The notes under the pieces are model-generated. The model searched no databases. It was given only the letters and a program-made list of their open reading frames with translations, and was not told the DNA's origin. A stretch of 22,013 bases of DNA, from NCBI RefSeq assembly GCF_946885885.1, contig NZ_CAMPHN010000067.1, positions 1-22,013 on the forward strand, written 5' to 3'. Below are positions 1,620-21,135 of the stretch, one piece after another. This DNA comes from an uncultured Pseudomonas sp. (GTDB taxonomy: Bacteria; Pseudomonadota; Gammaproteobacteria; Pseudomonadales; Pseudomonadaceae). Both the position numbers and the translations under genes were made by a program. The stretch's first letter is position 1; the number at the start of each line of letters is the position of its first letter.

Positions 1620-1704
1620 GCCCCGGTGGCGGAACCGGTAGACGCGGCGGATTCAAAATCCGTTTTCGAAAGAAGTGGGAGTTCGAGTCTCCCCCGGGGC
1701 ACCA
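1620..1704 (+). tRNA. tRNA-Leu(CAA), integration target
   Basis: The cloverleaf can be drawn by eye. The acceptor GCCCCGG (1620-1626) pairs with CCGGGGC (1694-1700), followed by A and an encoded CCA (1702-1704). The anticodon loop TTCAAAA (1652-1658) carries CAA at 1654-1656, which reads UUG leucine codons. There is a long class II variable arm and a T-arm with GTTCGAGTC. The gene is intact although an element is integrated at its 3' end, so integration restored the 3' part. It has its own promoter upstream and a terminator just after it. Confidence 0.97.
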
Positions 1705-1708
1705 TTTA
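1682..1708 (+). repeat. attL core (3' end of tRNA-Leu)
   Basis: This block runs from the T-arm TTCGAGTCT through CCA to TTTA after the tRNA, 27 bp. It matches 21110-21135 except for one missing G in the right copy. It ends with tRNA position 1704 plus four bases, as is usual for tRNA-targeting integrases. Confidence 0.9.
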
Positions 1709-1747
1709 CAAGTAGCAGGCAGTGTCAGCAAATGCCACTAGCCCAAT

Positions 1748-1774
1748 AAAGCCGGCCACTGCGCCGGCTTTTTT
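1748..1774 (+). terminator. Intrinsic terminator after tRNA-Leu, supplied by the element
   Basis: The stem AAAGCCGGC (1748-1756) pairs perfectly with GCCGGCTTT (1763-1771) around the loop CACTGC, and the T-run ends at 1774. It lies inside the element, so it replaces the chromosomal terminator that was moved to the far side of attR (21174-21198). Confidence 0.85.
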
Positions 1775-1782
1775 GTGTCTTA

Positions 1783-1863
1783 CAGTTCCTGGCAGTTCCT
1801 GCCGATTCCTTGTATCCCTGTATCCCCCTGTGTATCCTCAAAAATCACATAACTTCGGGATAC
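1783..1863. repeat. Cluster of short repeats before int (possible integrase arm sites)
   Basis: CAGTTCCTG occurs twice (1783-1791 and 1793-1801). GTATCC occurs three times as direct repeats (1812, 1820, 1832) and once inverted, as GGATAC at 1858-1863. Tyrosine integrases of the P4/lambda type bind short arm repeats flanking the core site, so this cluster between attL and int is a plausible arm region. It may also contain the int promoter. No clear -35/-10 pair was found. Confidence 0.5.
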
Positions 1864-1867
1864 ATGA

Positions 1868-3103: not shown

Positions 3104-3168
3104 CAAGGCCCTTGCCCTGCACCGCCACCACGCCGAAACTGGGCTTAGGTTTTTGGGAGACTTCCCGC

Positions 3169-3333
3169 ATGAGCTATCTCGACAACATCAACCTCGAGTA
3201 CGGAAAAGCACTCGGCAAGAGCGATGCCTACAAGGCCTATAAATACGAGCATGTAAAGATCCGCCGATCCCGTAAGGCGCACATCAGCAAGCTCGGTAAA
3301 TACTGGCTCCGCGCACGCGGCATATGGCTTTAG
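3169..3333 (+). CDS. Small basic protein of unknown function
   Basis: A 54-residue reading frame starting MSYLDNINLEYGKALGKSD, rich in lysine, arginine and tyrosine (KAYKYEHVKIRRSRKAH). The ATG at 3169 has TTGGGAGA (3153-3160) eight bases upstream as a ribosome binding site. It follows int by 65 bp and precedes the next small membrane gene by 9 bp, so all three may be cotranscribed. I do not recognise the family. An excisionase-like role is possible from size, charge and position, but no motif supports it. Confidence 0.55.
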   Translation: MSYLDNINLEYGKALGKSDAYKAYKYEHVKIRRSRKAHISKLGKYWLRARGIWL

Positions 3334-3342
3334 GGAGTCACC

Positions 3343-3558
3343 ATGCTACAAGTCTGGATAGGCGCCATCCTGCTGGTGCTCGGCATGTTCATGCTGCTGG
3401 CAAACCCCGTTGCCGGCGGCATCCTTATCGCCATCGGCTATGCCCTGTACATCAATACCAGCAAGGCCACACGCGCAGCGGCTGAATCCACGTTCTGGGG
3501 CATCTGCCTGATCTGCATGATTGTCGTTGGAGCAGTGGCCTTCCTTGGCCTGTTCTGA
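3343..3558 (+). CDS. Small membrane protein, two transmembrane helices
   Basis: 71 residues with two hydrophobic stretches, about residues 4-36 (IGAILLVLGMFMLLANPVAG, then ILIAIGYALY) and 50-71 (GICLICMIVVGAVAFLGLF). TAGGGAGTCACC before the ATG provides a ribosome binding site (GGGAG at 3333-3337). The stop TGA abuts the stop of the minus-strand gene to the right: TGATCA at 3556-3561 serves both, so transcription converges here with no gap. Inner-membrane location is likely. The function is unknown; small membrane proteins at element ends can be lysis- or exclusion-related, but nothing specific is seen. Confidence 0.7.
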   Translation: MLQVWIGAILLVLGMFMLLANPVAGGILIAIGYALYINTSKATRAAAESTFWGICLICMIVVGAVAFLGLF

Positions 3559-10492: not shown

Positions 10493-10536
10493 CACCACCT
10501 CCAGCCAGCCGCACCACGCAGCGTCGTTAAGTGGAC

Positions 10537-10562
10537 GCTATGTCACTGGGCTGGCCGAGCAA
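10537..10562 (-). promoter_or_regulatory. Shared upstream element of the minus-strand virion genes, copy 1
   Basis: On the minus strand TTGCTC is followed by 7 bases and then CCAGTGACATAGC (10549-10537), ending 44 bp before the polyvalent start codon. The second minus-strand virion gene has TTGCGC, 7 bases and the identical 13-mer (13277-13252). It could be a phage-type promoter or activator site. The 14-bp gap to a CATAGC -10-like hexamer is too short for ordinary sigma-70. Confidence 0.5.
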
Positions 10563-10570
10563 GGCAGCAA

Positions 10571-10597
10571 GAAAGAGAAAACCCGCCGTAGCGGGTT
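10571..10597 (-). terminator. Minus-strand intrinsic terminator upstream of the polyvalent gene
   Basis: AACCCGC (10580-10586) pairs with GCGGGTT (10591-10597) around CGTA. On the minus strand the stem is followed by TTTCTCTTTC, a T-rich tail; on the plus strand no T-run follows. It would stop minus-strand transcription before the polyvalent gene's own upstream element. Confidence 0.6.
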
Positions 10598-10729
10598 AAG
10601 CCTCTTGGGGTGGCACATGAAAGGCGAACCTTACAGGGGGTGGCGGTCCTAGCTATGGATGAATGACCAGCTAGCGGGATGTCTCACCATGGATTAGTGT
10701 CTCTAGGCCACCAAGGAATGCTCAGAACA

Positions 10730-10960
10730 ATGGATCAAGAAGAACGATTTCAACTCATTCTCGAAGCGCTTATGCTCTCATCTGCCGCGCAAGGGGCTAC
10801 TACGGATGCCCTTCTTACCATCATCCTCCCGCTTGTCGATAAAGACCTGATTACTCGGGATCAAGCCAACGAGTTCATGACAGCCCTGAGAACTCAGCTC
10901 GAGCATGTCCGCGAAATCAACAAGCTTATCTCGGAATTATCCGGAGCGACCGAGAAGTGA
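10730..10960 (+). CDS. Small helical protein of unknown function
   Basis: 76 residues from MDQEERFQLILEALMLSSAA, predominantly helical and hydrophobic at alternating positions, with no obvious membrane segment. I chose the ATG at 10730 because AAGGA (10713-10717) lies 12 bases upstream and the preceding codons (from 10679) read like leader sequence; the start is uncertain. The stop TGA (10958-10960) overlaps the next start as TGATG, so the two genes are coupled. It belongs to a three-gene plus-strand block placed between two minus-strand virion genes. The family is not recognised. Confidence 0.65.
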   Translation: MDQEERFQLILEALMLSSAAQGATTDALLTIILPLVDKDLITRDQANEFMTALRTQLEHVREINKLISELSGATEK

Positions 10961-11568
10961 TGAATCGTGAAATGCCGGGGGCATGGGCAGAGAAAGCTGC
11001 CAGGGATACAGATGAGCGCAGCAAGCGCATTCAGAACATCGAGGCGCATGCTGGTATTGGGATTGGTGATTTTTCCGATCTGGAAGTTTCACCTAAAAGG
11101 GCAGATACTGAAACCGCCATGAACGATATCACTCGCCCCGAACTCGACGCCAAGCTAGAAGCCATTGAAGCCAGAATGGACGCTCGGGTCGCATCCACCA
11201 ATACGAAGATTGACGCCTTCCTCGCCGCTCAATCTGAAAGAGACAAAGCTACTGCAGCGCTGGCCGCCGAACGCGATCAACGCCTACATGAGCGCGTGGC
11301 CTCTTCGGTGACATTGTCTGATGAGTGGAACCAGAAGTTCCGCATGCTGACCGAGCAGGCCACCGAGGCCGCCAAGAGTTCCGACGCATCTGCGAAGCAG
11401 GCCGCCAACCTGAAAACCCATTTCTGGGCCAGTGTTGGTGTGCAGATTCTGGCCGTTGCCGCGATCATCGTGGCAGCCTACTTCGCCAACCAGCAGATCG
11501 GCATCGGTTTCGCGCAGATCGTGCAATCGATCTATGAATCGGCGCAGTCCTTACCTTCCGCACCGTAG
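10960..11568 (+). CDS. Phage-type coiled-coil protein with C-terminal membrane anchor
   Basis: 202 residues. From about residue 54 the sequence is a long coiled coil (ITRPELDAKLEAIEARMDAR, then heptad-rich stretches to about 150). A single transmembrane helix follows (ASVGVQILAVAAIIVAAYFA, about 156-175) and then a short tail. Proteins of this design are frequent in Pseudomonas prophages but have no assigned function. The start is ATG 10960 (TGATG overlap with the gene before); a GTG at 10957 would add one residue. Tethering or host-envelope modification is a guess from architecture only. Confidence 0.8.
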   Translation: MNREMPGAWAEKAARDTDERSKRIQNIEAHAGIGIGDFSDLEVSPKRADTETAMNDITRPELDAKLEAIEARMDARVASTNTKIDAFLAAQSERDKATAALAAERDQRLHERVASSVTLSDEWNQKFRMLTEQATEAAKSSDASAKQAANLKTHFWASVGVQILAVAAIIVAAYFANQQIGIGFAQIVQSIYESAQSLPSAP

Positions 11569-11587
11569 CGAAAGAGCGGCGATAACC

Positions 11588-11932
11588 ATGAAACTACTGT
11601 TAATCGCCGCCCTCTTTGCCCTACCCGCGTTTGCCTCGGCAGGTAACTTTGCAACCTGCCTGCTGGACGAGCTGCCCGGCGTGCAGAACAACAACGCCGC
11701 CGGCGCGGCCTATCAGGTTTGCAGCGCCAAGTACCCGGAACGCTACGCGAACGTCGAGCAAGGCTCCGGCCGCGGCTTCTTCGGCTTCGACTCTGGTGCC
11801 GAGTGCGCCTTGAGCAAAGCTCGAGACACACGAAACCAGGATGCGGCAGGAATGATCCGTGTCGCCTGCAACAGGCTCTATGACAAGAAATGCTCAAACT
11901 TGGCAACTGAGTTTGGACTCAATTGCCAGTGA
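11588..11932 (+). CDS. Small secreted cysteine-containing protein
   Basis: 114 residues. A clear signal peptide (MKLLLIAALFALPAFASAG) has a predicted cleavage after ASA. The mature part contains six cysteines, well placed for disulphides in the periplasm, and the segment RGFFGFDSGAECA. The ATG at 11588 lies 20 bp after the preceding gene, with GAGCGG upstream. Its stop (11930-11932) is one base from the stop of the minus-strand gene, so the two converge with no terminator between. Related small periplasmic proteins are found in Pseudomonas and phage genomes without known function. Confidence 0.75.
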   Translation: MKLLLIAALFALPAFASAGNFATCLLDELPGVQNNNAAGAAYQVCSAKYPERYANVEQGSGRGFFGFDSGAECALSKARDTRNQDAAGMIRVACNRLYDKKCSNLATEFGLNCQ

Positions 11933-11933
11933 G

Positions 11934-13217
11934 CTAACTGATATTCACACCCTGGCTCTGTAAGCTTCGAATGTAATCATCAACCGACACCCCATCTTCT
12001 TTTGCGGCCTGTTCAACCTCTGCCCGAGTGACTGACGCCCGCCGCTGCGACTGAACTGCACCGCCCGCTACCGGTTTTCCGGTTGTCACATCGATCAGCT
12101 GCGTACCACGGATATCCCTGCCGTTTTCGTCACGCCCCAGGATCACGTCCTGGGACTTGAAGCGATCTTTTGCTGGAGTACTCAGCGAGGTATAGGCCTC
12201 GCGCGCGGCCTGCTGCTGCTCGGCGCCCAAGCTCGGGTCAGCCATCATCGCACCCAACTCTGCCAGGCGCTGCTGCTTGCTCAGGTCTACGTTACCCAGT
12301 GTCAGTTCCTGCTGTAAGCGCTGCCGCTGAAGCTGGCCAGTAAGGCGCTCGTCCAATCCGGCCAAGATCCCCTGCTGTGCCTGTTGCTGCTGCAAGTTGG
12401 TTTGCGCCTGGCGCGAATCAAGGCGTGCATTCTGGATATCGGCGATCGATGGCGAGCGCGAACTATCCCGCACAACAGTGACCCGGCCACCACCTTCTCC
12501 GATGCCACCGCGGCGGCTTTCCTTGATCGTCTCAGCACGGATATCGTTGGCCCGCCCGAAACGCTCCAGGGCCAATTGACTATCGCCTGGCTGCATCTGG
12601 CTGAAGGTGCCGATGCCATCACCGATACCACCAATACCCCCATTCGGCATTGGTCGGGCGGAAGTTACCGCACCTGGCGTAGCCGCCTCGTTGGTGAACT
12701 CCATAACCCCATTCGCACCACGCCGACCAGCTATCTCGCCGCCAGCCATACCAGCACCAATGCCCGTGAGCGCATAGCCCTGGCCGCTGGGTTGAATAGG
12801 CTGAGTCGGTGCGGTCAGCGGGTTATTGGCCAGCGTATTGTCTTCCTTCGCCGGCAAAGGCTGAGTTGGTGCAATCAGCGGATTTAGCGCTTTACCACCT
12901 GCCCCCAGGCCACCAGCAATGCCGCCAGCCCTATGCTGGGCGATGAATGGCTGGCCCGTACTGTCGAAGCCAGGCAGACCAGAGAGGATGCCGCCCGGAG
13001 GTATTCCCTTGGAAACCGGCTGATCAAACTGGACCTGCATGCGTCGGGCTCGGTCAGCATCCCCCGGAACTTGCTGCACTGGCGGGGACATATCCGCGAT
13101 CGACGGCAAAGCCTGCCTTTGTCCTTTCTGGGCCAGTGGCGCATTAACAATACTGAAAGGCGTTTGCTTTTTTTTCTGGTTGGCGGCCGTTTCCAGGCCG
13201 TCGAGTTGGGCGGGCAT
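11934..13217 (-). CDS. Low-complexity phage protein, probably virion-internal
   Basis: 427 residues from MPAQLDGLETAANQKKKQTP. It is rich in Gly, Gln, Ala and Pro. A glycine-rich middle contains near-repeats (PLIAPTQPLPAKEDNT and PLTAPTQPIQPSGQG). A glutamine-rich helical part follows (about 270-330), then a compact C-terminus (VTRAEVEQAAKEDGVSVDDY). Such proteins usually sit directly before the giant injected protein in temperate podoviruses and are thought to be internal virion proteins; that role is inferred from composition and neighbourhood. I chose ATG 13217 because GAGGGAAGAG lies just upstream; the open frame extends 20 codons further. The shared upstream element lies 34 bp before the start. 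Confidence 0.8.
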   Translation of the reverse strand: MPAQLDGLETAANQKKKQTPFSIVNAPLAQKGQRQALPSIADMSPPVQQVPGDADRARRMQVQFDQPVSKGIPPGGILSGLPGFDSTGQPFIAQHRAGGIAGGLGAGGKALNPLIAPTQPLPAKEDNTLANNPLTAPTQPIQPSGQGYALTGIGAGMAGGEIAGRRGANGVMEFTNEAATPGAVTSARPMPNGGIGGIGDGIGTFSQMQPGDSQLALERFGRANDIRAETIKESRRGGIGEGGGRVTVVRDSSRSPSIADIQNARLDSRQAQTNLQQQQAQQGILAGLDERLTGQLQRQRLQQELTLGNVDLSKQQRLAELGAMMADPSLGAEQQQAAREAYTSLSTPAKDRFKSQDVILGRDENGRDIRGTQLIDVTTGKPVAGGAVQSQRRASVTRAEVEQAAKEDGVSVDDYIRSLQSQGVNIS

Positions 13218-13251
13218 AGCTCTTCCCTCGCGGATGTTGGTCGAGGCAAGA

Positions 13252-13277
13252 GCTATGTCACTGGCTACAGAGCGCAA
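13252..13277 (-). promoter_or_regulatory. Shared upstream element of the minus-strand virion genes, copy 2
   Basis: Minus strand: TTGCGC, 7 bases, then CCAGTGACATAGC (13264-13252), 34 bp before the ATG at 13217. The 13-mer is identical to copy 1 and the TTGCnC box is at the same distance. Confidence 0.5.
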
Positions 13278-13306
13278 GCCCTTAAATACCGGTTTTCTGC
13301 TCGGTA

Positions 13307-13322
13307 CAGTGTAACTACACTG
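13307..13322. promoter_or_regulatory. 16-bp palindrome between divergent genes (operator candidate)
   Basis: CAGTGTA (13307-13313) and TACACTG (13316-13322) form a perfect dyad around AC, in the 218-bp gap between the minus-strand virion gene and the plus-strand 303-aa gene. A second, shorter dyad, CACCG/CGGTG, lies at 13331-13344. The position suits a dimeric repressor controlling both directions. No regulator can be assigned from sequence. Confidence 0.45.
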
Positions 13323-13435
13323 AAGCTCTGCACCGGTATCGGTGCGGCGACCAGCCTAACCCGACGGGGTGAAAAGCGGCCCCCCTGCCGCCTGGCTGGT
13401 CGACATTTCAATTAGGGCGTCTGGGGAGACGAATC

Positions 13436-14347
13436 ATGTTGCGCGGCCAGCCTTTCACTCTGTTCGATCCACTCTTAGACCCAGTTCCTGCTGTGCCGTT
13501 TGGGAAGATGCTTCCCAAAATTGCCAACACAGCGCGCTCGCTGCTTATCTCGCGAGATTCAGAGCAGGTAATCGATGCGGCCGCTGCCATCATGTGGATG
13601 CAAGATGAGTACCTCGAAAAAGCAGCCATCGATAGCATTAGAAAAATTGGCCAATCACATGGGCTGGAACTGGAGAACTTCACCCCTGACGCGGCCGACA
13701 TCAACGATGTCATTGGTTGGCTACTGGACGGTGCCGACAAACCCAGCAGATCAGATGAAAGCCGGGAGATCTCCCGCCTAGCCGAGTTGATCCCCACTCC
13801 TGAAAACACCGATCCACTGGAAGCGCTTCAGCAAGGCATCGAACTATTCGAGCTAGACGATGAACTATTCCCGGATGCACATGAATGGGAGTACTTCGCT
13901 GTTTTATCCCTAATGCTGCTGTCAGAAGCCATAGATCAGATCAATAAGCCAGCTCAAAGCGCAATGTCGCTTGGACTTATGACACCACCTGCGGTCGAGT
14001 TCGCCGGGAAAGCAGGAGAGCTAGCCATTCTTGCCATGGAGTCAGTCTGCTATGCCGCCGAGGCGAGAAATATGGCAAGGGTGGAAAATACAGCCGCAGC
14101 GGTAGTAACAGCAGCAGTAGAGCGCGCCGTCAAAAACAAGATATCCCTGAACGCAGCAAAAGCAGCACACACGCGCCACAGCAAGCCGGATGGGGCAAAG
14201 GCCTTAAAACAGAAAATTCAAGCAATCTGGGCAACAGGTAAATATTCCTCGCGAGATACATGTGCGGAAGAGGAATATTCAGCTGTTGGCTATAGAACCC
14301 TCACCACGGCAAGGAAAGCTCTACGCGGTACACCAGACCCAAGCTAG
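13436..14347 (+). CDS. 303-residue protein of unknown function, winged-helix-like C-terminus
   Basis: The start MLRGQPFTLFDPLLDPVPAV has an excellent ribosome binding site (GGGGAG at 13421-13426). The middle is mainly helical, including an acidic stretch (ENTDPLEALQQGIELFELDD). The C-terminal 60 residues (KALKQKIQAIWATGKYSSRD... ARKALRGTPDP) look like a small DNA-binding helical domain that also occurs in other Pseudomonas mobile-element orphans. Base composition is visibly more AT-rich than its neighbours, a sign of separate transfer. It faces away from the virion genes across the operator-like palindrome and precedes the early operon by 100 bp. Regulatory function is a guess. Confidence 0.8.
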   Translation: MLRGQPFTLFDPLLDPVPAVPFGKMLPKIANTARSLLISRDSEQVIDAAAAIMWMQDEYLEKAAIDSIRKIGQSHGLELENFTPDAADINDVIGWLLDGADKPSRSDESREISRLAELIPTPENTDPLEALQQGIELFELDDELFPDAHEWEYFAVLSLMLLSEAIDQINKPAQSAMSLGLMTPPAVEFAGKAGELAILAMESVCYAAEARNMARVENTAAAVVTAAVERAVKNKISLNAAKAAHTRHSKPDGAKALKQKIQAIWATGKYSSRDTCAEEEYSAVGYRTLTTARKALRGTPDPS

Positions 14348-14417
14348 CCAGTGCGCGCACCAGCTAGCTGCTACACGCATAGGGTATTCCAGCAGCTCAA
14401 TACATGTGAAAAATAAG

Positions 14418-14453
14418 GTGCATCGCTAATCAACTGGAGATAGCGCGATGCAC
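14418..14453 (+). promoter_or_regulatory. Inverted repeat enclosing the start of the AlpA gene
   Basis: GTGCATCGC (14418-14426) is a perfect inverted repeat of GCGATGCAC (14445-14453). The ATG (14448-14450) lies in the right arm and the Shine-Dalgarno CTGGAGA (14434-14440) in the loop. In RNA a 9-bp stem would bury the start codon; in DNA it could be an operator over the start. Confidence 0.5.
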
Positions 14454-14693
14454 CCAACCACACTGCAAGACCTTCACCGCCAATCATCTGCCTTGGCTCA
14501 ACTGCTAACCCTCTCCGAGGTATGCAGCCTTCTCCGAAAATCACGCTCCGGCCTATACAAGCTTATGGCTGCTGATGAGAGCTTCCCGAAACCTTTCAAA
14601 GACGGCCAGACGCGCTCGGCACGGGCGTACTTTGCCGCCGGCGAGATTGCTGCATGGCAACAATCAAAACTGGCCGCGAGGGACGCTGTATGA
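14448..14693 (+). CDS. AlpA-type transcriptional regulator (helix-turn-helix)
   Basis: 81 residues. Residues about 20-72 form a MerR/AlpA-like helix-turn-helix with the family signature LTLSEVCSLLRKSRSGLYKL, then ESFPKPFKDG, AYFAAGEIAAWQQSKLA. AlpA-like proteins of P4-like elements act as excisionases and as transcriptional regulators of integrase or early genes. It is the first gene of the early operon and overlaps the KilA-N gene by ATGA (14690-14693). The start codon lies inside an inverted repeat (14418-14453), suggesting control at initiation. Confidence 0.88.
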   Translation: MHPTTLQDLHRQSSALAQLLTLSEVCSLLRKSRSGLYKLMAADESFPKPFKDGQTRSARAYFAAGEIAAWQQSKLAARDAV

Positions 14694-15343
14694 GCATTCT
14701 CACTGCGCTCCATCACAAACAGATCACCGTCGCAATTGATGCCGAGGGCATGCTCAACGCCACGTTGCTGGCCAAGCAGTTCGGCCGCAACCCCATCGAG
14801 TTCATCATGCTTGATGGTAACCAGCTGACTATCGCTCAGGTCGCAGAGCGCAACGGCCACCCTCTGCGCGATCAGTGGCAGAACAACCAGGTGCGGCTCC
14901 GTAACAAGCCCGAATACCTGCGCGCCCTGACAACTGCACGGATCATCCGCCACGCTGCCGGCACACCTGGTGGCCATGTCGCAGCAGCGCCAAATACGGG
15001 AGGAAACGGAATCTACAACTACGACGCAGGCCTGTGGGTTCACCCCTCACTTGCTGTGGGCCTGGCTCGCTGGCTTGAGTGTCGCGGGGAGGACTGGAAG
15101 CCAAGCCCGCTGGCCGAGTTCGTCGAGCAAGCTCTTGCCGGGCGCGGAACCGGAAAACCCAGCCAAGTTGAAAGCGCTGCTCCGAAGAGCGCGGCCGACA
15201 GCTTCTCCGACATGGTGGACGCCCAAACCCTGACGAACCTGCGCCAGATGGATCAGCTCCTGATCGACGGCGGCCTCCCATTCAGTGAGCGGCATCAGAC
15301 CCTCCAGGCTCGCCTAGACCAGCACGCCAAGCAGGGGGGCTAG
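14690..15343 (+). CDS. KilA-N domain protein
   Basis: 217 residues. The KilA-N domain covers about residues 8-135, with GMLNATLLAKQFGR near the start and the signature YNYDAGLWVHPSLAVGLARW (about 105-124). The C-terminus is a charged linker and helix. KilA-N is a DNA-binding domain of phage antirepressors (such as P1 Ant and KilA) and some toxic early proteins. The start is ATG 14690, coupled to the AlpA gene. The link of an Ant-like protein with a C4/CI-type RNA 0.9 kb downstream recalls P1 and P7 immI, although the gene order differs. Confidence 0.85.
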   Translation: MSILTALHHKQITVAIDAEGMLNATLLAKQFGRNPIEFIMLDGNQLTIAQVAERNGHPLRDQWQNNQVRLRNKPEYLRALTTARIIRHAAGTPGGHVAAAPNTGGNGIYNYDAGLWVHPSLAVGLARWLECRGEDWKPSPLAEFVEQALAGRGTGKPSQVESAAPKSAADSFSDMVDAQTLTNLRQMDQLLIDGGLPFSERHQTLQARLDQHAKQGG

Positions 15344-15348
15344 CCACA

Positions 15349-15543
15349 ATGACCAACTTCATCAAGCGCCCAGTGGTGGAGCGTATGACAGGCCTGTCTT
15401 GCACCGAACTATATCGGCGCATCGCAGCAGGAACGTTTCCGCAACAGGTCCAGCTCGGGCCGAAGAGTGTCGCCTGGGTTGAGGAAGAGATCGCGGCCTG
15501 GCAACAGGCTCAGATTGCCGCGGGTCGGAAGGAGAACAACTAA
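15349..15543 (+). CDS. Second AlpA-type regulator
   Basis: 64 residues, MTNFIKRPVVERMTGLSCTE, then LYRRIAAGTFPQQVQLGPKSVAWVEEEIAAWQ in two parts of the same AlpA/MerR-like helix-turn-helix. It is closer to the classical AlpA (Vis) consensus than the first copy at 14448. The GGGGGG run at 15334-15339 serves as ribosome binding site. The gene sits 5 bp after the KilA-N stop and its stop touches the next start (TAAATG). Two AlpA paralogues in one operon suggest that excision and transcription are controlled by separate proteins, or that one is a later acquisition. Confidence 0.9.
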   Translation: MTNFIKRPVVERMTGLSCTELYRRIAAGTFPQQVQLGPKSVAWVEEEIAAWQQAQIAAGRKENN

Positions 15544-15852
15544 ATGCTGAGCACAAAAAAGGCCGACCAACAGGCCAGCCCTAAGAAAATGCACCTGAAT
15601 GATACCACCGCCGAAGCTCAGCGCGCCCGGCTGCTGGAGCGCCTGCAGCTGGGCCCCGTGGACACCATCACAGCGCGCAGCGAACTCAACATCATGATGC
15701 CCGCCGCCCGTATCAAGGAACTGCGCGAGGCCGGCCACAACATCCAGACCCACCGCCTCACCCTGACAGATGATCAGGGCCGAACGCATCACGGCGTCGC
15801 GCGTTACTACCTGGGGACCGTGCCCGTTCAAATCGAAGGAGCGCCAGCATGA
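15544..15852 (+). CDS. Helix-turn-helix protein (HTH_39-like)
   Basis: 102 residues. After a basic N-terminus, residues about 25-90 read RARLLERLQLGPVDTITARS, ELNIMMPAARIKELREAGHN, IQTHRLTLTDDQGRTHHGVARYYL. This matches the phage HTH_39-type winged-helix pattern: a short HTH, then PAARIxELRxxG and a beta-hairpin wing. Such proteins are common in Proteobacterial prophage early regions and presumably bind DNA. GGAG at 15531-15534 precedes the ATG; the end overlaps the next gene by ATGA. Confidence 0.85.
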   Translation: MLSTKKADQQASPKKMHLNDTTAEAQRARLLERLQLGPVDTITARSELNIMMPAARIKELREAGHNIQTHRLTLTDDQGRTHHGVARYYLGTVPVQIEGAPA

Positions 15853-16088
15853 ATCTCTACGACGGCCACCGGGTTGAAGATCACGCGGCCTTCCTGTTCG
15901 ACGACTTGCTACCTGCAGTTGTCGGCTATGCCGACAGCCAAGGCGTACCGACCGGCGTAGCCGCTTTCGCGGTATTTCTGACCATGGCAGGGATCATGGC
16001 GATTGATGGTGTCGGGCGCGACGAGATCGTTCGCGCGATCGACGAAATGCGCTTTCCCGCCGACAACACCCCGGAGGTGCTGCAATGA
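15849..16088 (+). CDS. Small early protein of unknown function
   Basis: 79 residues, MNLYDGHRVEDHAAFLFDDL, followed by a hydrophobic helix (GVAAFAVFLTMAGIMAI) and an acidic end. The start overlaps the HTH gene (ATGA). The stop overlaps an ATG at 16085 preceded by GGAGGTG; that frame runs on through the antisense RNA to 16537. No family recognised. Confidence 0.75.
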   Translation: MNLYDGHRVEDHAAFLFDDLLPAVVGYADSQGVPTGVAAFAVFLTMAGIMAIDGVGRDEIVRAIDEMRFPADNTPEVLQ

Positions 16089-16094
16089 GCCAGC

Positions 16095-16123
16095 TTGCAG
16101 TTCCCCTATCTCGGCGCTATGGT
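16095..16123 (+). promoter_or_regulatory. Candidate promoter of the immunity leader
   Basis: TTGCAG (16095-16100), 17 bp and TATGGT (16118-16123). The fit to sigma-70 is moderate with ideal spacing. Transcription would start near 16130, just before a small hairpin (CGCGG 16132-16136 with CCGCG 16143-16147) and the antisense target at 16169. Confidence 0.45.
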
Positions 16124-16168
16124 TCGCCTGTCGCGGTAAGTCCCGCGGCCGACCTTGGCCGGTCGAGC

Positions 16169-16212
16169 AACTTGGCGCATAAGCGCCCCACCCGACTGCA
16201 GGCGCTTTTTTT
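16169..16212 (+). terminator. Leader attenuator: antisense target, antiterminator and intrinsic terminator
   Basis: AACTTGGCGC (16169-16178) is complementary over ten bases, with one G-U pair, to the loop of the structured RNA at 16269-16278. Its last five bases GGCGC (16174-16178) can pair with GCGCC (16183-16187) around ATAA. The same GCGCC is part of AAGCGCC (16181-16187), which pairs with GGCGCTT (16201-16207) before seven Ts, an intrinsic terminator. The two hairpins exclude each other. Antisense RNA binding to 16169-16178 would remove the antiterminator and favour termination. In phage P4 the CI RNA acts by premature termination after pairing with such a target (seqA). Confidence 0.75.
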
Positions 16213-16233
16213 GTGCCTGCATCATCGTGTTAT

Positions 16234-16307
16234 GGCGGCTGTGCGTGGGACACCTTCGGGTGTGCCGGGTGCCAAGTTCCCGGTCGGCCAACCCGCACAC
16301 AGCTGCC
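16234..16307 (+). ncRNA. Antisense immunity RNA, P4 CI / P1 C4 type
   Basis: The 74 nt fold into a three-way junction. The outer stem 16234-16249 pairs with 16292-16307 (16 positions, one C-A mismatch, two G-U). Hairpin ACACC-TTCG-GGTGT (16250-16263) has a UUCG tetraloop. The second hairpin, CCGGG/CCCGG (16265-16269 with 16279-16283), carries the loop TGCCAAGTT (16270-16278). This loop is complementary to 16169-16178 upstream and to AACTTGG at 16350-16356 over the next ribosome binding site. Phage P4 CI and P1/P7 C4 RNAs have similar size, a loop antisense to short targets in their own leader, and neighbouring early genes. The frame across it (16085-16537) includes an Ash-family-like stretch (SRSANPHTAAT in another frame); such ORFs are probably translations of these RNAs. 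Confidence 0.8.
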
Positions 16308-16359
16308 ACCCTAACTCGCTTGGCCGCGAGAAGTGGCAGCTCCAAACCAAACTTGGAGC
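16301..16359 (+). promoter_or_regulatory. Alternative hairpins and RBS-sequestering hairpin with second antisense target
   Basis: AGCTGCCAC (16301-16309) pairs with GTGGCAGCT (16333-16341) around an inner hairpin CTCGC/GCGAG. This competes with the outer stem of the antisense RNA, whose 3' strand it shares. GCTCCAA (16339-16345) pairs with TTGGAGC (16353-16359) and hides the Shine-Dalgarno GGAG (16355-16358). It shares GCT with the previous hairpin. AACTTGG (16350-16356) is the second target of the antisense loop. Confidence 0.65.
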
Positions 16360-16366
16360 ACCACCC

Positions 16367-16537
16367 ATGAATCACCTGCACACCCCCAATCCGTCTGCAT
16401 CTCACGCTGCGGCGTGGAAAGCACGCGCACTCGCTGCGCTTCATTCCGACTCAAGCTTGTCCGTCCGCCTCCGGCGCTACAACCAGGCCATGGCCCGGGC
16501 CCGCGCTCTGGAAGCTCAGGGGGTGGATCATGTCTGA
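16367..16537 (+). CDS. Small basic protein controlled by the antisense leader
   Basis: 56 residues starting MNHLHTPNPSASHAAAWKAR, a helical, arginine- and alanine-rich chain (RLRRYNQAMARARALEA). The start is ATG 16367 with GGAG at 16355-16358, which is hidden in a hairpin and covered by the second antisense target. It is the first gene after the immunity RNA, the position of kil in P4 or icd in P1, but it has no recognised similarity to either. The same frame is open from an ATG at 16085, but that part covers the structured RNA and is probably not the functional start. Its end overlaps the next gene (16530-16537). Confidence 0.65.
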   Translation: MNHLHTPNPSASHAAAWKARALAALHSDSSLSVRLRRYNQAMARARALEAQGVDHV

Positions 16538-16799
16538 TCTCGACTCCCTGAGAATCGATATCGCCGACGTGCGAGCAGTGGCTCGCGTCGAGCTGCAAAC
16601 CATCCGCACGCAGTTGCAGGCGATCTGCGCGGCCTGCAGCGACCCGGCCCTGATTCCACTGATCACCGTAGCGCAGCACCAAATGGTCGAGGCGCATGAT
16701 GCCATCGCTGGCCAGGTCGACTTCCTCGCCCAGGATCTGGAGCAGTTCGCTGCCGCAGTTCTGGGCCAGAACGCACGCGCCGGGGAGGTTCGGCCATGA
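16530..16799 (+). CDS. Small helical early protein, unknown
   Basis: 89 residues, MSDLDSLRIDIADVRAVARV, helical throughout with a long amphipathic pattern and two cysteines in CAACSD. GGGGGTGG before the ATG acts as ribosome binding site. It overlaps the preceding gene by 8 bp and the next by ATGA (16796-16799). Coupled tiny genes of this kind fill early regions of phages and satellites. No function assigned. Confidence 0.72.
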   Translation: MSDLDSLRIDIADVRAVARVELQTIRTQLQAICAACSDPALIPLITVAQHQMVEAHDAIAGQVDFLAQDLEQFAAAVLGQNARAGEVRP

Positions 16800-17059
16800 G
16801 CATTGCACTGGTACGAGCCAGATCGGCTGCCGGCCTGATGAGCAGTTCAGGATATGCCTTGGACGCTATCGCAAAGCTCCTGGCGGAAAACGCCGTGATG
16901 CGCACAGATGGCAACGGGCATGACTTCATGGACGGCTACCGGGAGGGCGGCCTGATCGAGGCGGTCAAGCTAATCGCCAGCAGCCTCAGCAGCGCAGGGG
17001 AAGACCTGGAAGCGATGATTGAGCAAAGGGAAACCGAAGACCTTGGGGGTGCGAAATGA
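16796..17059 (+). CDS. Small early protein, unknown
   Basis: 87 residues, MSIALVRARSAAGLMSSSGY, then a mixed region with HDFMDGYREGGLIEAVKLIA and an acidic tail. It is coupled by ATGA overlaps on both sides (16796 and 17056). The HDFMDGYREGGL segment suggests a compact fold related to other phage early orphans. No enzyme motif seen. Confidence 0.72.
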   Translation: MSIALVRARSAAGLMSSSGYALDAIAKLLAENAVMRTDGNGHDFMDGYREGGLIEAVKLIASSLSSAGEDLEAMIEQRETEDLGGAK

Positions 17060-17412
17060 CCACCAAGAAGACATCACAGATCCGCTGTCGCGACGACCTG
17101 AGCTTCACCTTCCGCGACGAACACGGCCGAATGATCAACTGGCCGCAGAACAACCCCGGCGTAAACGGCGACTGGGAAAAGGGCGTCGGCTTCTTCGAAG
17201 ACGAGATTGCCAAACTGGCTGAGTTCGACGAGACGGAGGCCTTTCACGCCATCGAGTTCGCCATTGCCGGCATGGCGAGGCGTGTCACATCCCTTGAGGG
17301 CGGGTTTGCCGAATCAGTCGCCCGTGCCGCCGTGCTCGGGTTGCGCGCCATGCGCAACGGCTCGGCCCGCTTCGAGCCGGTGGACGATGACGAGTCGGAG
17401 GATGACGCATGA
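17056..17412 (+). CDS. Small acidic early protein, unknown
   Basis: 118 residues. The N-terminus contains RCRDDLSFTFRDEHGRMINW, a beta-rich stretch; a helical middle (EAFHAIEFAIAGMARRVTSL) follows, and the C-terminus is strongly acidic (EPVDDDESEDDA). It is coupled by ATGA to both neighbours. The acidic tail could mimic DNA or bind a basic protein, but that is speculation. Confidence 0.75.
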   Translation: MTTKKTSQIRCRDDLSFTFRDEHGRMINWPQNNPGVNGDWEKGVGFFEDEIAKLAEFDETEAFHAIEFAIAGMARRVTSLEGGFAESVARAAVLGLRAMRNGSARFEPVDDDESEDDA

Positions 17413-17639
17413 GAAGCCTTTCCGCTCTCCTGGGCGAGCTTGGCGACAGCAAGCTCGCTCTGTTCATCGACCGCGCTGACGATCCCTGCTTGACCAAACA
17501 GGGGCGTGAAACGGCCGGCGATTGGGCTTTCGGATACCTGTGCGCCTTGCGCGATCTCGGGCACATCACCGCCGACGAGTACAACACCCTGGCCTCGGAG
17601 CCACGCCGACGGGCCTTAGCCGACAAGACCAGGGAGTAA
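17409..17639 (+). CDS. Small early protein, unknown
   Basis: 76 residues, MRSLSALLGELGDSKLALFI, a helical protein with GDWAFGYLCALRDLGHITADEYNTL. It is the last of the ATGA-coupled chain that starts at 16530. AGGGAG near its end (17630-17635) lies nine bases before a further ATG at 17645. Confidence 0.72.
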   Translation: MRSLSALLGELGDSKLALFIDRADDPCLTKQGRETAGDWAFGYLCALRDLGHITADEYNTLASEPRRRALADKTRE

Positions 17640-17644
17640 CCGCC

Positions 17645-17731
17645 ATGATTCGACAGAACGGCGCCCATGCGCCGACGGGATCGGCTTGCCCATGGAAAAG
17701 CTCGAGGATCGACCGTGGCGCGAAGCCTTAG
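17645..17731 (+). CDS. Possible 28-residue leader peptide before the replication gene
   Basis: MIRQNGAHAPTGSACPWKSS and eight more residues. It has a ribosome binding site (AGGGAG, 17630-17635) and overlaps the GTG start of the next gene in another frame, so it could couple translation. A hairpin CGGCGC/GCGCCG (17659-17674) lies in it. It may be chance coding. Confidence 0.3.
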   Translation: MIRQNGAHAPTGSACPWKSSRIDRGAKP

Positions 17732-18182
17732 GAAGTCAAAGGGCCGCAGCCCGGCCGGAACCTTCGCCGCCCTGCCCCATGCCGTCATGGACAGCGAGAG
17801 CTTCCGGGCCTTATCCGGCGGCGCCCTGAAGGTGCTACTGGGCCTGCTTCGCCAATACCGCGGCAGCAATAACGGCGACCTGTCGGCCACGCTTTCCCAG
17901 GCCAAGGCCTGGGGGGTAAACAGCACATCCACCCTGACCACAGCCCTCAAGGAGTTGCAGGAGCGAAATTTGATTGTGCGAACACGGGAAGGCCGATTCA
18001 CCAAACCCGGCGGCTGCTGCGCGCTCTATGCGCTGAATTGGCAGCCCATCGACCTATGCGAGGGAAAGCTGGAGGTGCAGCCCACTACAACAGCCCCTCG
18101 GAAATTCAGCCTCGAAAGAATAGAAAACCCGCTTCGAAAATCGAACCGAGTCGATTCGAAAATCGAAGCCATGGAGAGCTAG
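17715..18182 (+). CDS. Winged-helix replication-type protein
   Basis: 155 residues. I place the start at GTG 17715 (ARSLRKSKGR), with GAGG about seven bases upstream; homologues of this kind typically begin MARKxRRSKGR. A winged helix covers about residues 16-110 (FAALPHAVMDSESFRALSGG, then ALKVLLGLLRQYRGSNNGDL, and ELQERNLIVRTREGRF). Related proteins occur near replication genes of phages and integrative elements, and some are called replication initiators. The last 30 residues are encoded by iteron DNA (18133-18167), so the gene probably carries its own binding sites, as lambda O does. Direct initiator activity is inferred. Confidence 0.75.
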   Translation: MARSLRKSKGRSPAGTFAALPHAVMDSESFRALSGGALKVLLGLLRQYRGSNNGDLSATLSQAKAWGVNSTSTLTTALKELQERNLIVRTREGRFTKPGGCCALYALNWQPIDLCEGKLEVQPTTTAPRKFSLERIENPLRKSNRVDSKIEAMES

Positions 18183-18256
18183 CCGACCATGAAAAACACG
18201 CCCATCGGTTCGAAAATCGAACTGACCAGAGGGGTTCACTTACTTCGATTTTCGAA
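18133..18256. repeat. Four 13-bp iterons, probable origin or partition site
   Basis: TTCGAAAATCGAA at 18133-18145, 18155-18167 and 18209-18221, plus its inverse complement TTCGATTTTCGAA at 18244-18256. Each has TTCGA/TCGAA half-sites. The first two lie in the end of the winged-helix gene, the others after it. An AT tract (18261-18271, TTTTTATATAT) follows directly. Start spacings are 22, 54 and 35 bp, near multiples of a helical turn. Iterons beside a replication-type gene and an AT-rich tract are the usual layout of a replication origin. Confidence 0.75.
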
Positions 18257-18271
18257 GCCCTTTTTATATAT

Positions 18272-18344
18272 ACCAGGCGCAGCCTGGTCATCTACCAATC
18301 TAAAGCCTGTGAAACAGGCTCACGAAGTGCGAGCGCCCCCGCTC
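18272..18344. repeat. Three consecutive hairpins after the iterons
   Basis: ACCAGGC/GCCTGGT (18272-18288, loop GCA), AGCCTG/CAGGCT (18304-18320, loop TGAAA) and GAGCG/CGCTC (18331-18344, loop CCCC). They fill the gap between the AT-rich tract and the next gene. They may be part of the origin or primase and single-strand signals. No T-run follows, so none is a standard terminator. Confidence 0.5.
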
Positions 18345-18424
18345 ATTTACGTTGCAGATCGGCGAAATTTTCAGCCCATACCAGCCCCACAGAGATGCAG
18401 CCATCCGCACCAGGAAATACACAC

Positions 18425-18730
18425 ATGCCTGAGCAGAAAGACGACCAGCCGATCACGCAGGATCACCTCGGCCTAGGGCCAGAATTTATAGAGGCATTCG
18501 GTGGCAGGCCCCTGACCGCTCGCGAGATCGTGCAATGGCTATCCCGATGCCTGGAGCACGCCAGCGACCTGCAGCAGTTGCAGCTACACGCAGATTTCGC
18601 CACCGGAGCCATGCGGGCTCTGGTCCTCTGCTGGCTGGTGAGCCCCACCGAGTCGGAAACAATAGTCGCCGAACTGAATGCCGTGTATGGCGTTCGGTAC
18701 CGGCATCTATCCGGGGCGATCGTCCACTGA
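18425..18730 (+). CDS. Small protein of unknown function after the origin
   Basis: 101 residues, MPEQKDDQPITQDHLGLGPE, mainly helical (EFIEAFGGRPLTAREIVQWL) with few charged surfaces and no membrane segment. The start is ATG 18425 with AGGAA (18412-18416) eight bases upstream; the frame is open further left across the iterons but that part is repeat DNA. No family recognised. Position suggests a replication accessory, without direct evidence. Confidence 0.65.
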   Translation: MPEQKDDQPITQDHLGLGPEFIEAFGGRPLTAREIVQWLSRCLEHASDLQQLQLHADFATGAMRALVLCWLVSPTESETIVAELNAVYGVRYRHLSGAIVH

Positions 18731-19066
18731 GCCCCTGCAGCCCGAAGGCAAGAAGGCAAAAGAAGCCCCGGCAGCATCTCCGCGCGAGATGACCATCGAG
18801 CAGATGATCAGAGATCGACATCGGCCAATACCGGGGCTCCAAGGCCGGGGTTCATGTGGGACGCCTGGTGCGTCGAAACGCCCTCTAGGTTGGCCCCTAC
18901 ACCGGCCTCCCCTGCGTTGTACGCCCGGCACCAGCGGCCGTCAATCGCTACCTTCAGCGCTCCAAGTCCGCACAATCAACGAAACATTTTGTTACTCACA
19001 TCTGCTTGTAAAGCTGAGCTTATGACGGCGACACTCGATCTACGCCAGACAGGTAGAGGTCCTAAA
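18731..19066. other. Stretch of 336 bp without a convincing gene
   Basis: Two overlapping frames are open here. One reads EAPAASPREMTIEQMIRDRH from 18678 on, the other MWDAWCVETPSRLAPTP from 18854. Both lose any protein-like character after about 30 residues. They could be the pieces of one frameshifted small gene. No clear promoter, hairpin or RNA gene found. Confidence 0.5.
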
Positions 19067-19288
19067 ATGAGCGATATCCTTCAGCGATCCATGGCCGCAT
19101 TTTTCAGGTACGACCAGGCGGCCGCCACCAACCAGCCCTCAACTGGCCTCAGCGGCGAAGTCGAGCATGAGGGAAAGAGCTATGTCGTGCTGCGAAACGT
19201 GAACGGAGTACTGGCCGTCTACCGCGTGCGCAACGATGGCGTCCTGAAACGCCTGAAGCGCTGGCCGCATGAGATAGAGGAGGCCTGA
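19067..19288 (+). CDS. Small conserved-type Pseudomonas phage protein, unknown
   Basis: 73 residues, MSDILQRSMAAFFRYDQAAA, then EVEHEGKSYVVLRNVNGVLA and YRVRNDGVLKRLKRWPHEIE. A short helix is followed by a beta-rich domain. The start is ATG 19067 with GAGGT eight bases upstream; an in-frame ATG at 19022 is possible. Proteins with this pattern (VLRNxxGVLAVYRVRNDGxLKxLxRWP) are frequent in Pseudomonas prophages, with no known role. Confidence 0.75.
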   Translation: MSDILQRSMAAFFRYDQAAATNQPSTGLSGEVEHEGKSYVVLRNVNGVLAVYRVRNDGVLKRLKRWPHEIEEA

Positions 19289-19347
19289 CCGCCAGTTGAG
19301 TGGGCCACCTCCCGCCGCTACCGTGCTCAGGTACCCAGGAGGGATGA

Positions 19348-19629
19348 ATGGCAAACGGCACCCCAACCACCAAGCAGGTACTTGACGCGGCAGTCGCCGG
19401 CGGCTTCGAGCAGGTACAGCGGCTGGTCCAGGCCGGCGCGGATCTGAATGTACGGGATGACGGGGAGACGCTGCTCGATCACGTCGTCTCCGCTTTCACC
19501 AGGCCGGCGACGGTACCGGCGTTCGCCGCTGACATGCTGCGCCTGCTCCTGCAGCTTGGCGCTGAGCCCAGCTCCCGGGCGCCGAAGGGTATACTCGGTT
19601 TCAGCCCTGATGAGACGCTATACGCCTGA
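19348..19629 (+). pseudogene. Ankyrin-repeat protein, N-terminal fragment
   Basis: 93 residues with about two ankyrin repeats: VLDAAVAGGFEQVQRLVQAG, DLNVRDDGETLLDHVVSAF and DMLRLLLQLGAEPSSRAPKG. It stops just after DETLY. Related Pseudomonas proteins continue with a YDWAEFDY-type C-terminal segment; the fragment at 20583-20904 shows such a segment (APYDWAESDY). The ribosome binding site AGGAGGG (19337-19343) is excellent. Either a stop ended this copy or recombination removed its 3' part. It may still be a short functional protein. Confidence 0.6.
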
Positions 19630-19690
19630 TCGCACAGATGGAAAATCCGAAGGAATAGCCGCCCAGAGCTATCAGGCGACCGCTCATCAG

Positions 19691-19766
19691 TTTACGCCGC
19701 GTAAAACGTGCATCTGCTCAAGCTTGTGCAACCATTTGTTGAATAGTGCCCCTAAATAAGTACACT
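19691..19766 (+). promoter_or_regulatory. Operator-like palindrome and promoter of the toxin-antitoxin pair
   Basis: TTTACG (19691-19696) and CGTAAA (19700-19705) form a perfect dyad. Downstream, TTGAAT (19739-19744), 16 bp and TACACT (19761-19766) form a plausible promoter. Its start point would be within a base or two of the toxin ATG (19774), so the mRNA may be leaderless; no Shine-Dalgarno is present. Confidence 0.4.
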
Positions 19767-19773
19767 GCGCCGC

Positions 19774-20127
19774 ATGGAACAGCCGCCGCTAAAGCTGAAC
19801 GTCCGCTTCTTTTGTACCGCCTCGGGCAACGAGCCGGTGCGCGAATGGTTAAGCGAACAAGACAGAGAGGTCCGCCGCCTTGTAGGCACGGACATCAAGA
19901 CCGTTCAGCTCGGCTGGCCCATTGGCATGCCGGTAGTACGCAAACTCGACGAGAGTCTATGGGAAGTGCGTACCCATATACCGGACGGCATAGTCCGAAT
20001 ACTTTTTACCGTGGTCGGAAGCGACATGGTGCTGCTTCATGCCTTCATCAAGAAGTCACAGAAGACGCCCACCGCCGACCTGGCCACGGCAAAGAAACGC
20101 AAAGCTGCACTGCGAGGCAACCCATGA
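19774..20127 (+). CDS. HigB-like toxin (Gp49 / RelE superfamily)
   Basis: 117 residues. The fold signature of phage Gp49-like (HigB-type) mRNA interferases is visible: LWEVRTHIPDGIVRILFTVV, VLLHAFIKKSQKTPTADLAT and AKKRKAAL. Family members are ribosome-dependent RNases that cut mRNA and are blocked by the cognate XRE antitoxin. The toxin gene precedes the antitoxin, as in HigBA, and the two overlap by ATGA (20124-20127). There is no ribosome binding site before the ATG. It lies between two ankyrin-gene fragments, suggesting insertion as a unit. Addiction would help to keep the element. Confidence 0.9.
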   Translation: MEQPPLKLNVRFFCTASGNEPVREWLSEQDREVRRLVGTDIKTVQLGWPIGMPVVRKLDESLWEVRTHIPDGIVRILFTVVGSDMVLLHAFIKKSQKTPTADLATAKKRKAALRGNP

Positions 20128-20450
20128 ACAAGCATATTGGCTCCGACTTCGACGACTTCCTGGCTGAGCAAGGCCTCACGGAAGAGGTCTCTGCTGCTGC
20201 GCTCAAAAGGGTCATCACCTGGCAAATTCAAGAAGCGATGAAAGCGCGGCACATTAATAAAATGGTGCTTGCCCAGCGAATGCATACCAGCAGAACGGTA
20301 GTGACTCGCGTGCTGGATGCGAATGACGCTGGCATGACGATCGCCACCCTGGCAAATGCTGCGCGGGCGCTTGGCCAACGGGTAGAAGTCCGACTTGTAC
20401 CCGATGAAGATGCTGGGCTTTCCACGAAGGACGAAGCCTGCTACGCCTAG
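20124..20450 (+). CDS. HigA-like antitoxin (XRE helix-turn-helix)
   Basis: 108 residues. Residues about 35-80 form the XRE domain (KARHINKMVLAQRMHTSRTV, VTRVLDANDAGMTIATLANA), followed by ARALGQRVEVRLVP, the usual end of HigA-type antitoxins. It binds the toxin and, in known pairs, represses its own promoter; the dyad at 19691-19705 is a candidate site. The start overlaps the toxin stop. Confidence 0.9.
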   Translation: MNKHIGSDFDDFLAEQGLTEEVSAAALKRVITWQIQEAMKARHINKMVLAQRMHTSRTVVTRVLDANDAGMTIATLANAARALGQRVEVRLVPDEDAGLSTKDEACYA

Positions 20451-20582
20451 GCTTTTCACTTCTCAGGCGACGGAGCTTCCTGCCGCTTGATGCATCCATG
20501 CACCTGAACTGCACAATTCAGCAGCGCAGCTTCGGCCGCATCCAGAGCCACACGCCACTGATCATTGATCAGCACCAACATG

Positions 20583-20904
20583 CTAGCCCAGAGCATCGAG
20601 CTGATGCGCATCGTGCTGGAGGGCGCGCGCGGCGCCAAACGACATGCCGGATTTCAGCTCTGGTGAAGCACCGTACGACTGGGCCGAGAGCGACTATTGC
20701 TATAGCACCTGGTACGAGCCATTCCACGAAGGCGGGTCGCTGCTGCCGCCAGACACTCCCACGGCCGCCGACGAAGCCAACGAAGATGCCTGGCTGCTCT
20801 ATCTCGATCGCTGCGCGGTCAAGCATGGCATGAGGCGACCCGACTACCTGCTCCTGCTGCGGGAGTTCGGCGCCCGAACTATGGCTGAGCTGAAGAGCAA
20901 ATAG
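20583..20904 (+). pseudogene. Ankyrin-type protein, C-terminal fragment with frameshift
   Basis: From 20583 the frame reads LAQSIELMRIVLEGAR and, after an extra G near 20631, continues as PNDMPDFSSGEAPYDWAESD, then DEANEDAWLLYLDRCAVKHG and RPDYLLLLREFGARTMAEL to the stop at 20904. The tail is typical of Pseudomonas ankyrin proteins. The N-terminal repeats are missing. The second frame has an ATG at 20644 but no ribosome binding site. About 40 residues align with the end of the fragment at 19348-19629, so these are parts of two related genes rather than one gene cut in two. Confidence 0.55.
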
Positions 20905-21109
20905 GCGCGGCCCAACTGTGGAAGTTCGAGTCTTGTCAGAGGCGCCTGACTATTGCTGAAGGGCAGTTTCGACACATATGATTCGCGCCCGCTGGAGCAA
21001 AATTTGACCTTTTGGGATGGGGCACTTTTTGTTTTAGGGGCAGATTTAGGGGCATGACTCAAGAGCCACAACACATAAACCCTGCAATCAAGAGACCTAC
21101 AGCAAAAGC
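20905..21109. other. Remnants of another tRNA-Leu integration event (205 bp)
   Basis: GTGGAAGTTCGAGTCT (20928-20943) matches tRNA-Leu 1675-1690 at 15 of 16 positions. Further right, GGGGCA recurs at 21019, 21037 and 21049 (TTTTAGGGGCAGATTTAGGGGCA region), the type of repeat found upstream of divergent tRNA-targeting integrases. No gene is present. Confidence 0.5.
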
Positions 21110-21135
21110 TTCGAGTCTCCCCCGGGCACCATTTA
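21110..21135 (+). repeat. attR core (displaced tRNA-Leu 3' end)
   Basis: 26 bp from TTCGAGTCT to CACCATTTA, identical to 1682-1708 except for one missing G (CCCCCGGGC instead of CCCCCGGGGC). Sequence to the left (AAAGC) and right (TCCCA) differs from attL, fixing the limits of the repeat. Confidence 0.9.

Follow-up and report, generated by a model that had tools for sequence, protein, structure and literature searches.

The data below support the presence, in the window analysed here (a 22,013-nucleotide stretch of DNA from an uncultured Pseudomonas sp.), of an antisense RNA of the C4/CI type, flanked on either side by targets that match it. The best explanation, which we hold to be likely, is that an integrated phage-like element uses these parts, arranged as they are in P4 and P1, as its immunity/early-control locus. 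The parts are called here by the names used for the P4 CI RNA, seqA-seqB-seqC and the t1 terminator. Of these, seqA and seqC are also named for the P4 CI RNA in the excerpt of PMC4825925 consulted.

Identity and Fold of the C4 RNA

A preliminary description, made from the letters of this DNA, had proposed a three-way-junction RNA at 16234-16307 with a design common to the P4 CI and P1 C4 RNAs, and had allowed that the Rfam C4 family might already include it. Our covariance search bears out all three points. The C4 model (RF01695) spans 16228-16313 at full length (model positions 1-87) and scores 80.5 bits against a cut-off of 45; it also matches P4 (74.9 bits) and P1 (68.8 bits). The window RNA belongs to an already described family, and the idea of a new RNA class was rejected since Rfam already has C4, c4-a1b1 and isrK. 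The features of the RNA and its loop targets are as follows.

16228..16313, + strand: C4 antisense RNA (RF01695, E 1.2e-14)
16269..16278, + strand: C4 variable loop (seqB / b'), GTGCCAAGTT
16285..16291, + strand: C4 junction contact (a'), CGGCCAA
16301..16309, + strand: AGCTGCCAC, 3' arm of the C4 outer stem; either of two strands could pair with it
16169..16178, + strand: seqA / b1 target, AACTTGGCGC
16350..16356, + strand: seqC / b2 target, AACTTGG
16085..16537, + strand: 150-aa open reading frame running through C4

In the excerpt of PMC5320573 consulted, the P1/P7 C4 is described as a processed RNA of ~77 nt whose 5' end is cut by RNase P, and the C4-like RNAs of Acinetobacter baumannii as highly expressed and apparently processed from longer transcripts.

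For comparison with other loci, two C4-core pattern scans of viral and genome contigs, each giving at least 120 stretches, were supplemented by the window and three phage records; the 244 records yielded at least 247 pattern matches, the window included. A stem filter passed 116 of the 247 matches listed and dropped 131. Keeping a single locus for each distinct loop, provided that its flanks were long enough, gave 68 loci among the matches listed; dropping loops with two or fewer differences left 58 dissimilar loops (window included), a step that handles relatedness only roughly. A separate alignment of 43 sequences (A1) joins 39 of the 68 loci, one per distinct arm core, with P4, P1, Phipami28 and phiAH14b.

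Within this alignment, 96.0% of the cells of the C4 fold are paired and 230 cells are changed on both sides. Such strong covariation, together with the score of the region as RNA, stands against reading it as a protein gene encoded by the 150-aa frame. That frame is open, and one like it is annotated in P4 (the cI gene product) and in two Pseudomonas phage records; the window frame, however, has no Pfam or NCBIfam match. On the covariation and the missing family match we reject the protein reading, which strikes us as extremely improbable.

As an observation in its own right, the P4 'cI gene product' (L244 8330-8521, minus strand) has a match to the Pfam family Phage_ASH (PF10554) at residues 22-85. 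The matched stretch covers the C4/CI RNA (8507-8420) and the downstream target, and the Icd-like model begins at residue 85. The Ash 'protein' family may largely be translated non-coding RNA, to judge from the one protein seen.

Pairing of the Loop and Junction with Both Targets

The complementarity that had been noted between loop 16269-16278 and two flanking sites agrees with the letters: the loop forms 10 pairs, one of them G-U, with seqA and 7 pairs with seqC. The latter overlaps a Shine-Dalgarno-like GGAG (16355-16358) upstream of an open reading frame at 16367. When the 200 nt upstream are shuffled by mononucleotide, 23 of 20000 trials give a match of all 10 pairs, 9 or more of them Watson-Crick; for the 100 nt downstream a 7-nt match turns up in 219 of 20000 shuffles, so the window's seqC match taken alone is modest.

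Much stronger support than these odds for a single locus comes from the comparative test, which used position limits and the 58 dissimilar loops listed. On the seqA side the native loop-target mean is 19.02 versus 10.83 for foreign loops (maximum of 5000 permutations, 12.31); on the seqC side the values are 19.79 versus 11.18 (maximum of 5000 permutations, 12.91). The native scores lie beyond every permutation and therefore the loop and both targets change together, that is, they co-vary across C4 loci. The native loop is strictly the best for its own site in 30/58 cases upstream and 32/58 downstream among the dissimilar loops listed, and the window's loop ranks first of these 58 for seqA and second (or tied) for seqC. 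An initial swap test had placed the native loop in the top 5% at 36/68 loci upstream and 46/68 downstream among the matches listed. Independent variation of loop and targets, which the preliminary description had named as contrary evidence, is not what the 58 dissimilar loops listed display.

A second contact joins the three-way junction to both flanks.

16155..16161, + strand: a1 target, TTGGCCG in an upstream hairpin, complementary to junction 16285-16291
16315..16330, + strand: downstream hairpin CTCGC-TTGGCC-GCGAG, carrying a2

The a2 site (16320-16326) is again TTGGCCG, complementary to the C4 junction CGGCCAA. An exact 7-nt complement of the junction occurs upstream in 68/68 listed loci (shuffled mean 25.8, maximum 37 in 2000 shuffles); in 54/68 there is one no more than 30 nt downstream (shuffled mean 21.4, maximum 32). 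These counts span six junction classes among the 68 loci listed, and because the search pattern requires GCCAA in the junction, only the two preceding letters test junction co-variation freely. An upstream TTGGC hairpin with a flanking stem of at least 4 pairs is found in 67/68 listed loci, and a downstream TTGGC hairpin in 44/68. Records outside the search pattern behave in the same way. P1 has the junction CTGTCAA with TTGACAG at both a1 and a2 (and b = GTTAGTG). By eye, the P4 junction and a1 have letters unlike the window's and yet are complementary to each other, the P4 leader and downstream sites show the same parts, and phiAH14b agrees with the junction-target complementarity. Each target is bipartite, combining a loop contact with a junction contact. 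The P1 record annotates a1, b1, a2 and b2, so bipartite targets are an already known feature of these loci. The second contact pair, the terminator/antiterminator and the competing downstream strand described below are absent from the preliminary description.

Leader, Terminator, and Antiterminator

Upstream of C4 the window contains the following features.

16095..16123, + strand: promoter-like site, TTGCAG - 17 nt - TATGGT, a consensus match by eye only
16117..16169, + strand: c4-a1b1-like leader; its two hairpins lie at 16130-16149 and 16150-16165
16130..16212, + strand: isrK-like leader RNA, the terminator at its 3' end
16174..16187, + strand: antiterminator hairpin GGCGC-ATAA-GCGCC, its 5' strand within seqA
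16181..16212, + strand: t1-like intrinsic terminator, AAGCGCC...GGCGCTT and a T run

The -10 part of the promoter-like site sits where the c4-a1b1 match starts. Alignment of the window leader with either leader model runs from one end to the other, but the scores stay below the cut-offs: c4-a1b1 (RF03163) gives 37.4 bits against 46.7 (E 4.6e-8), though the layout is alike, and isrK (RF01394) gives 36.9 bits against 50 (E 1.5e-6). P4 has the same order, isrK and then C4, and scores 60.8 bits with isrK.

The intrinsic terminator between seqA and the C4 RNA is a P4-type trait present in the sequence. Its 5' arm can pair alternatively with GGCGC at 16174-16178, inside seqA. Since the antiterminator strand lies inside seqA, pairing of C4 at seqA would remove the antiterminator. 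This arrangement suggests a structural reason how the C4 RNA could trigger the intrinsic terminator. Briani et al. reportedly found in 2000 that factor-free termination at t1 in P4 needs the CI RNA and seqA, and by eye the antiterminator/terminator arrangement of P1 is alike.

Folding predictions across the set point in the same direction. In 40 of the listed loci with a terminator by our search rule, the predicted terminator probability averages 0.51 with seqA free and 0.85 with seqA blocked, compared with 0.54 for control blocks; the seqA-blocked value exceeds the control mean in 33/40 (Wilcoxon p 1.9e-6) and every control block in 22/40, with a rise of more than 0.2 in 20/40. The block lowers the prediction in five of the 40 (L018, L090, L118, L139, L215). 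For the window itself, the probability is 0.11 free and 0.99 with seqA blocked, and the control blocks (mean 0.53, maximum 0.99) free the terminator too, so that the model gives seqA no specific effect there. An antiterminator helix starting within seqA is found in 36/39 listed loci, and its arms co-vary: the native helix score of 13.25 exceeds the permutation maximum of 12.75 (0/10000; 20 distinct arms listed). Our search rule finds a terminator in only 41/68 listed loci, and attenuation may therefore not be general.

A Third Strand Downstream of C4

A further perfect complement of the C4 3' arm lies past the a2 hairpin.

16333..16341, + strand: third strand, GTGGCAGCT, perfectly complementary to the C4 3' arm 16301-16309

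Together with the C4 3' arm, this strand encloses the a2 hairpin. In the 43 aligned sequences, P1 and P4 included, 83.7% of the cells of the third-strand helix are paired versus 73.1 in shuffles, and 59 cells show a double change versus a shuffled mean of 19.1, with 0/500 shuffles as high. Versions of the helix slid out of register reach at most 61.3% paired cells and 29 double-change cells. Two of the five measures fail to separate the helix from shuffles, namely the pairs with a double change (7 versus 5.9, 141/500 as high) and the further pair types (20 versus 18.6, 139/500 as high). A first swap test was weak, with 10/40 distinct arms of the listed loci in the top 5%, probably due to the GCCACC common to the foreign arms. 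The third strand is found from P1 and P4 to the window and covaries with the C4 3' arm.

The strand was also considered as an equilibrium switch. When the 43 sequences are folded with it present, the C4 outer stem has a mean of 0.69 and the alternative helix 0.15; the alternative is ahead in 6/43, the C4 stem is ahead or tied in 37/43, and the window's alternative stands at 0.00. Folding thus favours the C4 outer stem and leaves an equilibrium switch unsupported. A bolder proposal, which we regard as unlikely, is that the third strand could replace the C4 5' arm, such that read-through transcripts would yield less mature C4 and binding of C4 at a2 would release the arm, giving a bistable, RNA-only lysogeny switch. 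If this were true, C4 production and operon expression would be mutually exclusive. The analysis exposes the conserved third strand as an element directly testable at the bench.

The excerpts consulted of PMC4825925, PMC5320573 and PMC2864571, a scope that excludes the key P1/P4 primary papers, are silent on both the antiterminator and the third strand. The family-wide evidence for both may be new; we do not claim their absence from print.

The Integrated Element and Its Genes

The host locus of the C4 RNA is a phage-like element integrated in tRNA-Leu. Its extent and main genes are listed here.

1682..21126: whole element, ~19.4 kb, bounded by a 17-nt repeat of the tRNA-Leu(CAA) 3' end
1868-3103: integrase of the phage integrase family, Pfam domains matched over cut-off
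11934-13277: 447-aa open reading frame, no assigned family
13436-14347: 303-aa open reading frame, no assigned family
16367..16537, + strand: 56-aa open reading frame, the first after seqC, in frame within the 150-aa frame
17667..18182, + strand: replication-initiator O-like gene, same direction as C4 (phrog_18020, E 2.3e-6)

The 17-nt direct copies of the tRNA-Leu(CAA) 3' end lie at 1682-1698 and 21110-21126. An imperfect copy (76% over 29 nt) at 20918-20946, starting 192 nt before the right att repeat, is possibly the trace of an earlier insertion. Among the phage records that match similar DNA, 31/32 are Pseudomonas phages. Following the C4 locus come small open reading frames, the O-like replication gene with repeats, and a pair at 19774-20450 consisting of a Gp49-like (DUF891) protein and then a protein with weak helix-turn-helix matches; this pair, close to the element's right end, is putatively toxin-antitoxin-like.

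The 56-aa frame has no Pfam match. Residues 17-170 of the O-like protein are 72.7% identical to the 'replication protein O' of Pseudomonas phage vB_Pae_U1. Relatives of this protein were found at 7 loci among 20 pattern matches, and of the six O-like loci scanned for C4 (L248, which is vB_Pae_U1, L249-L252 and L254, with L253 and L255 outside the scan) only L249 has a match over the cut-off. Four TTCGAAAATCGAA-type repeats, at 18133, 18155 and 18209 with an inverted copy at 18244, fall within 18133-18259, at and past the end of the O-like gene, and this cluster is a possible replication origin.

Neither the 303-aa nor the 447-aa frame was assigned a family in Pfam, PHROGs or NCBIfam, and the 7 pattern matches for the 303-aa protein in viral contigs include 0 true relatives. 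An int-alpA RNA (RF02996, 61.6 bits) at 13349-13417, 5' of the 303-aa frame, is a second structured RNA of the element, and Phipami28 (L001) has one too. On the minus strand, 3559-10498 holds two large overlapping frames (3559-5880 and 5873-10498), perhaps a single gene in two pieces. They carry domains of large polyvalent proteins, LPD38 in one case and LPD3 with the ADP-ribosyltransferase domain of polyvalent proteins in the other. Among phages, the first is matched best by Aeromonas phage phiARM81mr (40.5%).

The gene content bears on whether the locus is still in service. If the element were dead, or if the RNA now acted on other targets (as is suggested for the A. baumannii C4-like RNAs in the excerpt of PMC5320573), the lack of any capsid or terminase match among the window proteins scanned and the presence of the long minus-strand protein in two overlapping frames would fit. 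Against such decay or repurposing, the integrase domains score over their cut-offs, the att repeats are present, and both bipartite targets, the terminator and the antiterminator match the loop and one another. We judge this alternative quite improbable.

Proposed Mechanism and Immunity

Starting from what was computed (the sequence, the family, the co-variation of both contacts and the folding prediction), we infer the promoter, processing, repression, operon extent and immunity as follows. A single transcript would start from a promoter near 16095-16123 and run through target 1 (the a1 hairpin and seqA), the t1-type terminator, C4, target 2 (the a2 hairpin and seqC) and an early operon that would include the O-like replication gene. 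The C4 RNA would be excised from this transcript and act in trans, its loop and junction pairing with both bipartite targets. At target 1, C4 occupying seqA would break the antiterminator, and the terminator would form; termination ahead of new C4 synthesis would amount to autoregulation. At target 2, C4 would cover the Shine-Dalgarno of the frame at 16367 and block its translation, and probably also lead to downstream termination. The shut-off would extend to an incoming copy whose loop/target set is the same.

The preliminary description had also stated that no CI-type repressor gene is seen and that the immunity factor is an RNA and not a protein. The first statement holds in so far as Pfam scans of 24 window proteins, one of them outside the element, gave no match to a CI-type repressor. 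It needs qualification in that seven helix-turn-helix, AlpA or KilA-N matches do exist, in five proteins, three of them below the curated cut-off; element proteins with Pfam matches include two AlpA-like, one KilA-N and one HTH_39. Nor does a C4 RNA imply that a protein repressor is absent, since the C4 locus of P1, as annotated in its record, sits behind an operator of the protein repressor C1 and before icd-ant.

This P1 precedent also favours an auxiliary role for the RNA, in which C4 controls the early operon and the main immunity comes from an unrecognised protein repressor such as the 303-aa protein. The five proteins counted above and the frames without a family would offer candidates. 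Other observations run against it: besides the missing CI-type match in the 24 proteins, the frame through C4 (16085-16537) has no match to the Icd-like model NF033153 up to E 1, whereas P1 and P4 do match that model, and the gene downstream is an O-like replication gene, as replication genes are in P4. We think an auxiliary role somewhat unlikely. It overlaps the preferred reading, an immunity/early-control locus built as in P4 and P1, and the sole difference is the share of immunity that falls to the RNA.

Comparison with Known Systems

The window shares with the P1/P7 C4 system the RNA fold, the junction and loop contacts, and the bipartite targets, a1/b1 before and a2/b2 after the RNA. In P1, too, b2 lies just ahead of a start codon and, by eye, a terminator lies between b1 and C4. 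The window differs in that the frame after C4 is not Icd-like by NCBIfam and that an O-like replication gene lies downstream. With the P4 CI RNA it has in common the order leader-terminator-RNA-target and a downstream replication gene. This gene encodes the alpha primase in P4; in the window, no primase match was found among the proteins scanned, and the O-like initiator takes its place.

Also close are the Pseudomonas phages phiAH14b and Phipami28, which have C4 at 89.0 and 75.8 bits, respectively, with similar flanks; the int, AlpA and primase/helicase annotations of phiAH14b give it a P4-like layout. Their surrounding gene content differs from that of the window, and so do their loops, so that their immunity is presumably different as well.

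To our knowledge, bench work on the C4/CI family has dealt mainly with the coliphages P1/P7 and P4. The present analysis adds to this family a complete, well-resolved locus from a Pseudomonas-type element, along with a comparative set in which both contacts of the RNA co-vary with both targets.
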